Origin: an uncultured bacterium | GTDB taxonomy: Bacteria; Patescibacteriota; Saccharimonadia; Saccharimonadales; Saccharimonadaceae | Assembly (NCBI GenBank): GCA_903861015.1 | Contig: CAIOSL010000011.1 | Coordinates: 1 to 10,386 of the forward strand | Direction of reading: 5' to 3' | Length of the DNA stretch: 10,386 bases | Shown: in pieces, positions 5,885 to 10,071 of the stretch | Layout: each line of letters starts with the position of its first letter | Numbering within the stretch: position 1 is the first letter of the stretch | The notes under the pieces: generated by a model | The model's input: only the letters and a program-made list of their open reading frames with translations | The model's database searches: none | Told to the model about the DNA's origin: nothing | Translations under genes and position numbers: made by a program

Positions 5885-5912
5885 TTGCATCACATATCTA
5901 TGATGATATAAT
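5885..5912 (+). promoter_or_regulatory. promoter of the tRNA-Gln region
   Basis: TTGCAT (5885-5890), a 16-bp spacer, and perfect TATAAT (5907-5912) with an upstream TGA (extended -10). The predicted start is at about 5919-5922, immediately before the tRNA-like sequence at 5922. No convincing promoter lies directly before the intact tRNA-Gln at 6111, so this one probably drives the whole stretch to the terminator at 6183-6221. Confidence 0.65.
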
Positions 5913-5921
5913 AGTGACTAT

Positions 5922-6060
5922 TGGGGATTAGCCAAGTGGTAAGGTGAGAACTGCCATGTCGGCAGTTCGCAAGGCCGCAGCCTGGATTGCGAATGCAACC
6001 AAGCGAGGCGAGGTAGCGGAAATTTGCAAGGCAAATTATCTGCAACACGGGTTCTGTCAT
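5922..6060 (+). pseudogene. broken tRNA-Gln copy, interrupted in the D arm
   Basis: The first 23 bases (5922-5944) are identical to the 5' end of the intact tRNA-Gln at 6111: acceptor strand TGGGGAT, D-stem and D-loop through GGTAAGG. The sequence then leaves tRNA homology for about 100 bases (element A) and resumes at CAAC...GGGTTCTG (about 6043-6056). That segment resembles the anticodon arm CAACGGGTTCTG with two extra bases, and then jumps to TCAT with GTCCCG missing. The T arm and 3' acceptor strand are absent. It cannot give a functional tRNA unless the missing half is supplied elsewhere. It lies directly behind a good promoter, so it is probably transcribed. Confidence 0.75.
5945..6059 (+). 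ncRNA. structured RNA element, copy A
   Basis: Predicted structure from direct pairing: hairpin 1 GAACTGCC/GGCAGTTC (5948-5955 with 5961-5968); hairpin 2 CGCAA/TTGCG (5968-5972 with the matching TTGCG about 15 bases on) enclosing GGC/GCC; a short GC-A-ACC/GGT-A-GC helix; and hairpin 3 GCGGA plus AATTTGC pairing with GCAAATT plus TCTGC near 6016-6043. The core 5968-6046 matches copy B at 6285-6363 in 74 of 79 positions without gaps. A possible closing stem pairs TGAGAAC (5945-5951) with GTTCT..CA (6051-6059, two-base bulge). I cannot name the RNA; it lacks recognisable group I, group II, RNase P, SRP or tmRNA core motifs. Right-hand limit is uncertain. Confidence 0.6.
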
Positions 6061-6110
6061 TAACCAGGCGACCAGAACCAAAATGTGCGACAAGCACCAA
6101 TAATAATCAA

Positions 6111-6184
6111 TGGGGATTAGCCAAGTGGTAAGGCAACGGGTTCTGGTCCCGTCATCGGGGGTTCGAGTCCCTCATCCCCAGCCA
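6111..6184 (+). tRNA. tRNA-Gln (anticodon CUG)
   Basis: Complete 74-base cloverleaf including encoded CCA. Acceptor TGGGGAT/ATCCCCA (6111-6117 with 6174-6180), D-stem GCC/GGC with loop containing GTGG, anticodon stem ACGGG/CCCGT with loop TTCTGGT giving anticodon CUG, T-arm with loop TTCGAGT and one G-U pair in its stem, discriminator G and CCA at 6181-6184. The U1-A72 pair is characteristic of tRNA-Gln. It reads CAG codons. The last A of CCA is the first base of the terminator stem. Confidence 0.96.
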
Positions 6185-6221
6185 AATTAAAAACAGACCC
6201 GCGTGGTCTGTTTTTAATTTG
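6183..6221. terminator. strong intrinsic terminator after tRNA-Gln
   Basis: A perfect stem of 16 bp (6184-6199 with 6205-6220, 17 with the outer C-G pair) and a five-base loop CGCGT. The 3' arm contains TTTTTAATTT, providing the U-rich tail on the plus strand; the mirrored A-rich arm makes it usable from the minus strand as well. It begins within the tRNA CCA. Confidence 0.9.
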
Positions 6222-6256
6222 CTCGTAACTGCGGGAATCGAAGCCCCGATGACCAT
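6221..6256 (-). repeat. inverted, degenerate copy of the tRNA-Gln 3' half
   Basis: Read on the minus strand from 6256, this stretch contains TGGTC, ATCGGGG, TTCGA and TCCC in the same order as the anticodon-to-T-arm part of the tRNA-Gln at about 6143-6171, and then continues into the mirrored terminator arm. The tRNA 3' half plus terminator therefore forms an imperfect inverted duplication centred at about 6202. It also has a small perfect hairpin CCCGAT/ATCGGG (about 6245-6260). It is not a complete tRNA. Confidence 0.6.
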
Positions 6257-6262
6257 CGGGAG

Positions 6263-6384
6263 TGAGGATTGCAAGTCTGCAATCCGCAAGGCCGCAGCCT
6301 GGATTGCGAACGCAACCAAGCGAGGCGGGGTCGCGGAAATTTGCAAGGCAAATTATCCGTAACCGAGTCCTTCATCCTCAGCCA
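6263..6384 (+). ncRNA. structured RNA element, copy B, with tRNA-like ends
   Basis: Second copy of the element at 5945-6059. Hairpin 1 is GGATTGCA/TGCAATCC (6266-6273 with 6278-6285): three of its eight base pairs differ from copy A as compensated double changes. The core 6285-6363 is 74/79 identical to copy A. Hairpin 3 closes with GCGGA/TCCGT, exchanging G-U and G-C pairs relative to copy A. Its outer ends form a perfect 7-bp stem TGAGGAT/ATCCTCA (6263-6269 with 6374-6380) followed by GCCA, exactly like a tRNA acceptor stem. The last 21 bases are a near copy of the tRNA-Gln 3' end. No promoter lies between it and the terminator at 6183-6221, so it may be silent. Confidence 0.55.
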
Positions 6385-6419
6385 TGAAATAAATCAGGCA
6401 TATTCGGTCTGGCTTTTTT
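6380..6419 (+). terminator. weak terminator candidate
   Basis: AGCCA (6380-6384) can pair with TGGCT (6410-6414) just before a run of six T (6414-6419), but the stem is short and the loop long (25 bases). It could end read-through of copy B. Confidence 0.25.
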
Positions 6420-7386: not shown

Positions 7387-10071
7387 TTGACTATAGCTAT
7401 GGAACACAAATCCAAAACTCCTGAAAAGATGATTGGCAATAAGCCAAGATCGATACTGCCTGAATTAGGAAGGTCTGCATTAAGCACGGAACAGACGACC
7501 CCACCAATAACGATATTCGACGACAAGAATAGCCTTGACGAGCAACTTAATAACCCTAAACCTGAATGCATTAAATTAGGGCTTGAATGGGCTATTCCAC
7601 TAATCGAGACCTGGGACGGTGAACGTATCACCGAGAACATCTCTAACTATACAGAGTCTGACCATTACGAGATAGCTGATAGAATAATTGAAAAGGGAAG
7701 CGGCTGGAGTGTTGCAGAGTACCTTCCAAATTTTACTGGGCTTAACCATACCGACATTGCCAACAAACTAATTGAAAGGGGAGGTGGTAAGGATGTCGCC
7801 CACTATCTGCCAAACTTTATTGGTATCGACCATAACGCAGTAGCTAACAAGATAATTGAAATGAGAGACGGCTGGGAGGTTGCCAAACACCTGCCAAATT
7901 TTATTGGGCTTGACCATACCGAGATTGCCAACAAGATAATAGAGACTGGATACATCAAATGCGTTGTGACCTATTTAAGTCACTTTACAAATCTGCCTGG
8001 CAACAAAATACCGCAGCTAGAGGAGCATTTTAGCGACCCTAATATACTAAAAAGTAACTTATTCCGGTTTGTGGACATGCCAGAAGAAATACTTAGAAAT
8101 CTAAGTATTAGGTTTGACATACCAGAACTTACAAATATGCCCAGACCACGGACAAATGACTCGGGCGAGATCCGTCAGCCACGATCATCAGCAATAGATC
8201 GTTGGTACGGCGAGCTGTCGTACGCGCATATGGAAGGTGGTTTTAATAAAGCAACTATTGGGCATTTAATTCGACTACAGATTGAAAACAAAGTCCAAGA
8301 TAACATCCATGACGCTTCGCAATGGTTGTCGACTTTTCGTATTCCTGAAACCAGTCATGACATTACGGAGATATTGAACGCGCGCAATTCAGCCGATTTT
8401 GATCCTAAATATCTGGATGACTTTAGGGCAACCTTGATCGATCATGACGCCGAAAAACAATTTTTCGTTCAACTGTTGGCCACCGGTCAAGACACGAGGG
8501 CTCGACTGCGTTACGAAGGGGTCGAGCGCGAGCCATCGGTTGACGATAAGCTATCCGGCATATTCAAACTCCGACCTGGTTTACGACAAGATCTAAATGC
8601 AAAGTTAGCTATCGAAAATAATGTCTTTACAAACAATTTCTATAACAAAATACTTATTGATGATCCAAACCTTGCCCAAAAATACAACGAGGCGACTGCC
8701 AACAGCATCACAAAACGTAAGTTTTTTAAAGATATACTTAAAGATAATATTTCGTATGCGACCGAATTAGACCAGCAACTAAAACAATTGCTTGGCAGTA
8801 TTAAAAATGAATTCTGCAATATGGTTTTAAATAACAGCCCAGAATTATTAGACACTTTGGGTAAAAAGAAGGATAAATCTGTTGAAAATGAGTCTTGGTT
8901 CTTTTCGCCAGAGAATCAACTGCTATTTAGGGCAGCGCTGGAAAGTGTTGACGGCATACCATTTTACAAACGATCTGACTTTTCAGCCCAGACGTTATTT
9001 GACAGAGCCAAACTGATGATAGATGACTTTCATCAAACGACAGCATTCGGGCGAGGCAAAGAGGTGTTTAGCTATTATTTAAGTGCGGCCGACTTGTCTA
9101 ATCGTCTTGACGATATGCGTAACGTCGTACAGACAGGCGAGCCGGCTGTATTGGGCAATCTGGGCGATACGGTGCGCGCTCTGACGCAGGCCCGGACCGC
9201 ACGCAATAATTATATAAATGATACTCAAAGTTGGCTAATGAGACACACTAGCTCGACTAATAGCCGGCTGACAAAGATATGGAGTGATCGTCCGATGGCG
9301 TTAGCATGCGGCATATCAGATAACGTCAAAGATATAGAGCTCTGGCATAATAACAACGCGCTCGAGCAAATGGCTTTAGACCTAGAATCTAGTGGTAACT
9401 TACAGGATAAATTCGATCTATCATATAGAGAAGTAATGGACGAAGGGCAAAAGCCTGTCCGCACAGAGTTAATGCGACGCCTATCAGCAATTGATACCAT
9501 ACGCGCTATGTCAAGATTAAAGGACTGGAAGAACAAACGCATTGAAAAAAATATTGTTAGTATCCTGCCTGCATCCAGTTGCACAGTGGATATAAAACGG
9601 GGCAACACAAGCAAGTCGTACAAATTTGAAGTCCTCAGCAAGGACGACCCACGTGGTTTTACGATCGGGGAAGATACAAATTGCTGCATGACAATCGACG
9701 GAGAATCTAGCGACTGCATCAGAGCGGGTTACACTGAAAAAAACTGCGGTTTCATGGCGGTATACAACACTACCGGCACCATAATCGCCCAGTCATTCTG
9801 GTTTATTAACGAAACCCATCCAAACACTCTGGTAATCGATAATATCGAAGCATATGGCGCCAAAGACTTGCAATCAGTGGTCGAGATTTATCGTCACGCC
9901 TTGAAAGACTACCTAATAACGCATGCCGAACTTGGGATTACAAATGTCCATGTTGGTACTGGCTTTTCAGACGTCGATCTAGGCACGCTGCCAACCGCCC
10001 GTCCAGTCCCAGTATTAGAGAACATCGATTATTCAGACGCAGAGGTTCAAAAATTATTGCTAGAGTTATAG
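7387..10071 (+). CDS. large uncharacterised protein with 28-residue tandem repeats and Cys-containing C-terminal domain
   Basis: An 894-residue protein I cannot name. Layout: a polar N-terminus (1-84); four tandem 28-residue repeats (85-196; consensus close to LPNFxGLDHxEIANKIIExGxGxxVAxY) and the start of a fifth; a long, mostly helical, charged middle (about 205-735); and a C-terminal domain (about 745-870). The latter has the line TIGEDTNCCMTIDGESSDC, then CGFMAVYNTTGTIIAQSFWFI, LVIDNIEAYGA and a helix plus ITNVHVGTG, an order of strands and helix that recalls acetyltransferase-like folds without a clear acetyl-CoA loop. No signal peptide or membrane helix, so probably cytoplasmic. Start: AGGTG (7378-7382) is four bases before TTG 7387, better placed than for ATG 7399 (four codons in), so TTG is preferred. 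It has its own promoter. Confidence 0.85.
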   Translation: MTIAMEHKSKTPEKMIGNKPRSILPELGRSALSTEQTTPPITIFDDKNSLDEQLNNPKPECIKLGLEWAIPLIETWDGERITENISNYTESDHYEIADRIIEKGSGWSVAEYLPNFTGLNHTDIANKLIERGGGKDVAHYLPNFIGIDHNAVANKIIEMRDGWEVAKHLPNFIGLDHTEIANKIIETGYIKCVVTYLSHFTNLPGNKIPQLEEHFSDPNILKSNLFRFVDMPEEILRNLSIRFDIPELTNMPRPRTNDSGEIRQPRSSAIDRWYGELSYAHMEGGFNKATIGHLIRLQIENKVQDNIHDASQWLSTFRIPETSHDITEILNARNSADFDPKYLDDFRATLIDHDAEKQFFVQLLATGQDTRARLRYEGVEREPSVDDKLSGIFKLRPGLRQDLNAKLAIENNVFTNNFYNKILIDDPNLAQKYNEATANSITKRKFFKDILKDNISYATELDQQLKQLLGSIKNEFCNMVLNNSPELLDTLGKKKDKSVENESWFFSPENQLLFRAALESVDGIPFYKRSDFSAQTLFDRAKLMIDDFHQTTAFGRGKEVFSYYLSAADLSNRLDDMRNVVQTGEPAVLGNLGDTVRALTQARTARNNYINDTQSWLMRHTSSTNSRLTKIWSDRPMALACGISDNVKDIELWHNNNALEQMALDLESSGNLQDKFDLSYREVMDEGQKPVRTELMRRLSAIDTIRAMSRLKDWKNKRIEKNIVSILPASSCTVDIKRGNTSKSYKFEVLSKDDPRGFTIGEDTNCCMTIDGESSDCIRAGYTEKNCGFMAVYNTTGTIIAQSFWFINETHPNTLVIDNIEAYGAKDLQSVVEIYRHALKDYLITHAELGITNVHVGTGFSDVDLGTLPTARPVPVLENIDYSDAEVQKLLLEL
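7639..7974 (+). repeat. four in-frame 84-bp repeats in the 894-aa protein gene
   Basis: Four consecutive units encode 28 residues each (residues 85-112, 113-140, 141-168, 169-196), with conserved LPNF, (L/I)(N/D)H, IA-K-IIE and VA positions. Repeats of this length with hydrophobic i, i+3/4 spacing suggest a two-helix solenoid, a common protein-binding scaffold. Units 2 and 4 are more alike at DNA level (38/41 over their first 41 bases) than units 3 and 4 (31/41). Confidence 0.85.

Follow-up and report, generated by a model that had tools for sequence, protein, structure and literature searches.

What are the two nearly identical, hairpin-bearing stretches that stand on either side of a single tRNA gene in a genome of the Saccharimonadaceae, and what ties them to that gene? 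The window, the whole 10,386-nucleotide stretch of DNA analysed here, comes from an uncultured bacterium (contig CAIOSL010000011.1) and holds two copies, E1 and E2, of an element, E, with a tRNA-Gln(CTG) gene between them. A preliminary description of the window recognised the pair; it missed the tie to tRNA genes and, judged from the sequences, the presence and absence from species to species, the nesting and the repeats that resemble those of a mobile element. Very probably E is an RNA-type element, structured and not described before, that is bound to tRNA genes.

Two elements inside partial copies of a tRNA gene

The features around the tRNA gene are arranged in the following order.

5907..5912, + strand: TATAAT, an exact match to a -10-like box, 5' of the upstream tRNA copy
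5922..5944, + strand: left arm L of copy 1, equal to tRNA-Gln bases 1-23 (23/23 identical to 6111-6133)
5945..6046, + strand: E1, with H1 at 5948-5968, H2 at 5974-6009 and H3 at 6013-6046 (family structure read onto the sequence)
6047..6056, + strand: right arm R of copy 1, equal to tRNA-Gln bases 26-35 (ACGGGTTCTG, as in the tRNA)
6072..6079, + strand: strip antisense to the anticodon region, CCAGAACC; similar strips occur at other upstream loci
6111..6184, + strand: intact tRNA-Gln (CTG), called by ARAGORN; Rfam tRNA, 61.9 bits
6185..6220, + strand: terminator-like palindrome 3' of the intact tRNA, seen in the sequence; part of an inverted repeat
6233..6252, + strand: strip A, antisense to the T-arm of the intact tRNA (sequence comparison, family profile)
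6254..6262, + strand: left arm L of copy 2, T-arm 5' side (CATCGGGAG; CATCGGGGG in the tRNA)
6263..6363, + strand: E2, replacing T54-T55 of the tRNA copy (model match, alignment to the tRNA)
6364..6384, + strand: right arm R of copy 2, the tRNA 3' end from base 56 (CGAGTCCTTCATCCTCAGCCA; CGAGTCCCTCATCCCCAGCCA in the tRNA)
6394..6412, + strand: terminator-like hairpin 3' of copy 2, found by scan

The element limits (E1 5945-6046, E2 6263-6363) are fixed by alignment against tRNA-Gln, and on that alignment each element lies within an incomplete copy of that gene: E1 stands where tRNA-Gln bases 24-25 (CA) should be, and the right flank of E2, CGAGTCC..CAGCCA, corresponds to the T-arm and 3' end of the tRNA. 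The ranges first proposed, 5945-6059 and 6263-6384, were right in placing two elements there and too wide in taking in tRNA-derived arms. ARAGORN, run on the window, calls no complete tRNA over E1 or E2. Strip A has two mismatches, one at G53, directly before the insertion point, and one at another base.

The likeness of the two copies is as originally described, with 74/79 identities and no gaps between 5968-6046 and 6285-6363; the mismatches fall at 5994, 6011, 6015, 6041 and 6043 in E1 numbering. The covariation claimed for the first hairpin is likewise present in the window sequence. Its arms are 5948-5955 (GAACTGCC) and 5961-5968 (GGCAGTTC) in E1, and 6266-6273 (GGATTGCA) and 6278-6285 (TGCAATCC) in E2, and three of the eight H1 pairs are altered on both sides (A-T to G-C, C-G to T-A, C-G to A-T). 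Three E stretches fold more stably than their shuffles (z -2.9 to -3.0). E1 and E2 are imperfect, worn members of the family. The last helix of each contains one non-standard pair (A-A in E1, C-A in E2), and they score 36.4 and 32.9 bits against model R2, where the best-listed family copies reach about 75-106 bits.

A promoter scan lists candidates on the + strand other than the TATAAT at 5907, and a terminator scan does not call the palindrome at 6185..6220 as a terminator. A -10-like match of at least 5/6 precedes 11 of 24 upstream D-arm copies and 15 of 24 intact tRNAs, compared with 7/24 in a zone 50 nt further up and 20% in shuffles; these counts hint faintly that the box in front of the upstream tRNA copy may be a candidate promoter element. 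Elsewhere in the window, an 894-aa open frame (7387-10071) has repeated stretches, for example LPNFIGLDHTEIANKIIE, near its start.

A covarying structure, probably kept as sense RNA

The aligned copies share three predicted helices, H1-H2-H3, within a length of mostly 85-105 nt. In the 34 copies that have a short third helix, from whose alignment the structure itself was drawn and whose relatedness inflates the counts, the 33 pairs are formed in 95.7% of cells, 22 of them change on both sides, and two-sided cells number 157 against 38.7 in shuffles. None of 500 shuffles attains any of five covariation measures, and slid structures are only 29-42% paired. Two-sided changes also affect 13 of 16 predicted pairs, H1 included, in a set of 70 copies, and H2 is built from quite unlike sequences among copies with its pairing unchanged. 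Five of the ten H1 pairs never vary in the 34-copy alignment A2, where H1 variation is underestimated because the consensus H1 was used to scan the named genomes. Covariation beyond that of shuffles, by which a structured non-coding RNA is recognised, is thus present, and the early claim that the pairing is under selection is borne out, homologues compensating in the covariation test. Neither outcome that the preliminary description had named as speaking against it, hairpin arms that diverge without compensation or a match to a DNA-only element, is seen; homologues keep the arms, with compensation.

The wobble pairs suggest which strand folds. One H3 pair is G-U in 30/34 copies; with the conserved 83:91 wobble left out, G-U outnumbers A-C by 10:2 in the 34 copies, and by 12:1 in a larger set that shares rows with them. 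Folding of the sense strand would be expected to leave such a bias, so it is the sense RNA that seems to be kept. The original reading of E as a structured element acting as RNA is strengthened to this extent, the tRNA setting being what it overlooked. Its author also recognised no known RNA class, and rightly: a search of the window against Rfam release 15 at E-values up to 1 returns the intact tRNA as its sole match, and at 14 E loci the Rfam matches that overlap E are weak and below gathering cut-offs. In the open-licence PMC literature, nothing was recognised as E.

Distribution

Searching related genomes with a model, as had been proposed, finds homologues: model R2 has matches in 63 of 244 genomes sampled from the class (Saccharimonadia) and in 38 of 108 genera, genome counts that the strict filters make a lower bound, with up to 16 matches per genome. 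The window's own genome has eight, six of which adjoin tRNA-Gln(CTG), Gln(TTG), Glu(CTC), Glu(TTC) and His, while two lie near contig ends with no intact tRNA in the stretch examined. Within the genus, 23/28 genomes match the query 5921-6062, which includes a tRNA arm. A phylum-wide sample yields 8 matching genomes out of 286, all within the order of the window's genome; the class sample contains two further matching genomes outside that order. Of 71 stretches from named genomes, most carry a Saccharibacteria title, some are labelled just bacterium or Patescibacteria, and one MAG titled Parcubacteria contributes three (L131, L145, L147). A viral origin of E was considered and dropped, one exact consensus-H1 pattern having 0 matches in viral contigs.

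A variant of E, in which the first hairpin starts CGA, then GAG, instead of TGA..GCAA, is seen at L037, L152 (7780-7870), L263, L272, L282 and L295.

Placement at tRNA genes

A same-strand tRNA lies at most 300 nt from 137 of 171 candidates found by script; one candidate has a tRNA on the opposite strand alone, and 33 have none on either strand, part of these being chance matches, contig ends or tRNA remnants. The flanks match the neighbouring tRNA at 13 or more of 16 bases at 112 of the 137 sites, and at these E replaces two tRNA bases in 95, three in 13, one in 2 and none in 2. Taken together, the alignments establish a two-base rule and a linkage of E to same-strand tRNA genes. In 69/70 downstream copies E sits in the T-loop; among the upstream ones, 25 have it in the D-arm, 8 in the anticodon, 8 in the T-loop and 1 elsewhere. 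All 14 model matches of one single-contig genome (G039) fit this setting: 12 adjoin an intact same-strand tRNA, and the remaining two, by eye, sit in tRNA remnants.

Archaeal tRNA introns may sit in the D-arm, anticodon and T-loop, and the choice of the same sites by E is what speaks for a tRNA intron-like element, excised from precursor tRNA. This we consider extremely improbable. An intact tRNA adjoins 137/171 candidates, and clean removal of E would not restore a normal tRNA, because E replaces two bases; Rfam introns have no match over E in the window or the 14 E loci. At L308, one tRNA-Glu copy bears E in all three loops (by eye), and next to this E-filled copy is a plain copy with an N-gap. 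The genome G260, which seemingly had an E-filled tRNA-Glu only, was dropped as a case for an intron on finding that the E-filled gene is followed by a plain copy, which has an N-gap.

tRNA arms and the antisense strip

The arms of 40 downstream copies match the tRNA over about 8 bases per side, the right arm fading toward the tRNA end. In the 25 upstream D-arm copies the match starts at tRNA base 1, with no mismatch to the neighbouring tRNA in 13, one in 5, 2-4 in 4 and 8-12 in 3; over the 20 nt 5' of base 1, upstream copies match at 1-13 bases, and one copy (L097) at 20. Co-evolution of arm and tRNA appears only weakly in these comparisons, since the upstream arms fit their own tRNA little better (mean mismatches 1.76) than the same tRNA of other genomes (2.68).

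Strip A is present in 52/60 downstream loci and conserved from -8 to +4. It is mismatched at -1 in 31 of the 52, against 65/571 over the other eleven positions between -7 and +4 (p ~1e-16, the loci not being independent), and it retains the complement of the two-base core, with mismatches in only 8 and 4 of 52. At upstream loci the strip is found in 8 of 33, covering the core and right arm. Where tRNA and E copy differ, strip A follows the tRNA 37 to 4, and it alone differs at 72 further sites, in a comparison that used 34 of 43 loci (six left out for unlike arms, three for a weak strip); in these 34 loci compensation between strip A and the E-copy arms is not seen (37 sites against, 4 for). 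Predicted folds of the 52 downstream loci contain L:A pairing in 44, R:A in 30, both in 26 and L:R in 0. A rigid arm-pairing search (49 rows; mean 14.2, null 11.4, sd 3.7) misplaced many strips and was dropped, looser or anchored strip matching taking its place.

Like downstream tRNA copies can also hold a second, unrelated insert after TTCG of the T-loop or nearby (L121 Arg(TCG), L148 Ser(GCT), L101 Gly(TCC), L022 Arg(TCT), L309 Gln); by eye, several of these end near GGAGGAGGCTTTAGCC, and an antisense strip is there too.

Gain, loss and nesting

Presence and absence of E between species, its nesting and its repeated units are apparent from comparison of the loci. At 24 tRNA-His loci of the genus, E is found by the strict finder in 6, variant E in one (L263) and remnants in two (L255, L264); 15 have neither E nor strip (partly by eye). 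An upstream tRNA copy occurs at 8 of 15 tRNA-Gln(CTG) loci of the genus, with E recognised by script in 6 and by other comparisons in 2; among the 7 loci without a copy, one stretch is only 150 nt. H1 sequences differ between the tRNA-Gln(CTG) loci and pairing is kept, and these paired differences also fit long retention for a function. At L245 a unit made up of a tRNA 3' end, a terminator, the strip, L and E occurs repeatedly, interrupted by a run of N, and the array terminates in a strip without E; L257 has one unit and then a second strip without E. E is nested in E at L080, and two consecutive E-bearing tRNA-Pro copies stand at L095. At L118 (296-385), a GC-rich hairpin that is not a tRNA holds E in its loop and is followed by a terminator-like hairpin; this is possibly a free-standing E gene.

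Candidate movers and closest known systems

REP/BIME repeats with RAYT (Y1) transposases are bacterial hairpin repeats without a gene of their own. E is also a gene-less hairpin repeat and co-occurs with Y1 genes: 30 genomes have both Y1_Tnp and E, 33 E only, 22 Y1 only and 159 neither (p 4e-8, lineage uncorrected). A REP-like DNA hairpin element moved by a Y1 transposase is nonetheless very unlikely. The 33 E genomes without a Y1 match include E-rich ones (G026, G039, G088, G098, G204); the H1 script recognises no E at 20 Y1 loci, where other palindromes occur; and the G-U bias favours RNA. REPs of RAYTs flank the RAYT gene, an arrangement that E does not have at the 20 loci. E differs from REP/BIME further in its three helices and in being same-strand and tRNA-bound. 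RAYT was accordingly rejected as the mover of E, real as the co-occurrence is. The Saccharibacteria RAYT-like Y1 genes L223-L242 are the source of a separate observation, that about 8 of 19 resolved Y1 genes are flanked on both sides by one same palindrome, unlike E (by eye).

Other candidate proteins fare no better. Reverse transcriptase (RVT_1) occurs in 15/63 E genomes and 61/181 others (p 0.16, lineage uncorrected) and, showing no association with E, was rejected as mover. IS110 transposase, rare in the class (6/244 genomes, 4 above cut-off) and present in 1/63 E genomes, was dismissed as partner for the same lack of association. An IS110-type transposase is found in the window's own genome, at G000:C79:3997-4350. 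Nop proteins seem not to be associated with E either, no match in 244 genomes exceeding the family cut-off; of 7 weak matches below it, 3 are in E genomes, and distant Tas proteins may escape the Pfam model for Nop. At the loci viewed, no protein gene accompanies E.

The layout of E is shared by none of the tested families. Rickettsia palindromic elements are small palindromic bacterial elements inserted in genes, as E is, and unlike E they are not known to be tied to tRNA copies. Mitochondrial double-hairpin or repetitive hairpin-forming elements may lie within RNA genes and within one another. They are short, hairpin-built, mobile and protein-less like E (PMC2800124); E differs in being bacterial, covarying as RNA, replacing two bases, and coming with a partly copied version of the neighbouring tRNA and, in most cases, an antisense strip. 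IS110 bridge RNAs have short target-matching stretches round a dinucleotide core (PMC11208160), which likens them to E with its tRNA-matching arms about two bases; their guides pair with opposite strands (PMC11208160), whereas L and R are both sense copies and E lacks an IS110 partner and sits at the core itself. TIGR-Tas tandem guide RNAs have paired ~9-nt spacers and are reported from Candidate Phyla Radiation bacteria (PMC12045711); E, by contrast, adjoins tRNA genes and does not form arrays beside a Nop-type protein. Bridge RNA and TIGR-Tas are nearest to E in layout, not in membership (PMC11208160, PMC12045711).

Mobility, guidance or regulation

The explanation that we favour, tentatively and with a little less than even confidence, is that E is a mobile non-coding structured RNA element of Saccharibacteria tied to tRNA genes, with mobility that would act at the level of sense RNA. 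E sits in a partial tRNA copy beside the intact gene, taking a two-base slot in the D-arm, anticodon or T-loop; on this reading E would be transcribed, and new copies would arise through an RNA step; arms and strip would tie E to its tRNA gene, which would stay intact. The RNA step is proposed because upstream copies start at mature tRNA base 1 and are mostly unlike the tRNA locus 5' of that base, and because downstream copies fade toward the tRNA 3' end. Against this explanation, such a step would need a reverse transcriptase, and RVT_1 does not track E; nor is the -1 mismatch of strip A explained by simple insertion. This mismatch, with the core bases kept, is the fact least fitting plain mobility; those least fitting plain regulation are the presence and absence of E, its nesting and its repeated units.

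The strip and arms invite readings in which E acts on its gene. E may, though this is rather unlikely, be a tRNA-programmed RNA element, one scaffold with arms and strip copied from each tRNA that would recognise both strands of the gene; on that same improbable reading, a two-base core and one built-in mismatch would be used, and E would be kept or newly inserted by a hypothetical partner. A programmable guide RNA, in which L, R and A let E RNA bind both tRNA-gene strands round the two-base core, is similarly doubtful, and so is its analogy with bridge RNAs or tandem guide RNAs working with a hypothetical protein partner. The ~8-nt arms that flank a two-base core would suit a guide, as would a strip that keeps the core complement (mismatches in 8 and 4 of 52) though the E copy is without the core, and that is mismatched at -1 far more often (31/52) than elsewhere from -7 to +4 (65/571). 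Yet IS110 is in 1/63 E genomes, Nop is above cut-off in none of 244, no protein gene travels with E at the loci viewed, and the arms fit their own tRNA little better than those of other genomes (1.76 vs 2.68); L and R are both sense, whereas the guides of bridge RNA and tigRNA bind opposite strands (PMC11208160, PMC12045711). An unlikely alternative of another kind is a cis regulator, in which A pairs either with the intact tRNA or with the E-copy arms and E decides between them, controlling tRNA folding or processing. The position of A between E copy and intact tRNA (at downstream loci, and at upstream ones where it is found) would allow this, the predicted folds pair A with L in 44 and with R in 30 of 52 (both in 26, L:R in 0), and A follows the tRNA 37 to 4 where tRNA and E copy differ. 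Opposed to it are the downstream A and E sitting behind a terminator-like palindrome, E-copy arm changes that go uncompensated in A, the 72 sites at which A alone differs, the strip being found in just 8/33 upstream loci, and the 15/24 His loci of the genus that manage without E and strip.

Meaning for the Saccharibacteria

One RNA structure thus has up to 16 model matches per small genome, most of those examined beside tRNA genes, and its layout obeys strict rules, in that two bases are replaced, the tRNA arms are about 8 bases long and the strip favours a mismatch at one position. A mobile E would be an RNA element that has specialised on tRNA genes and leaves them functional; an E that acts would be an RNA regulator or guide, specific for its tRNA and present at many of them.
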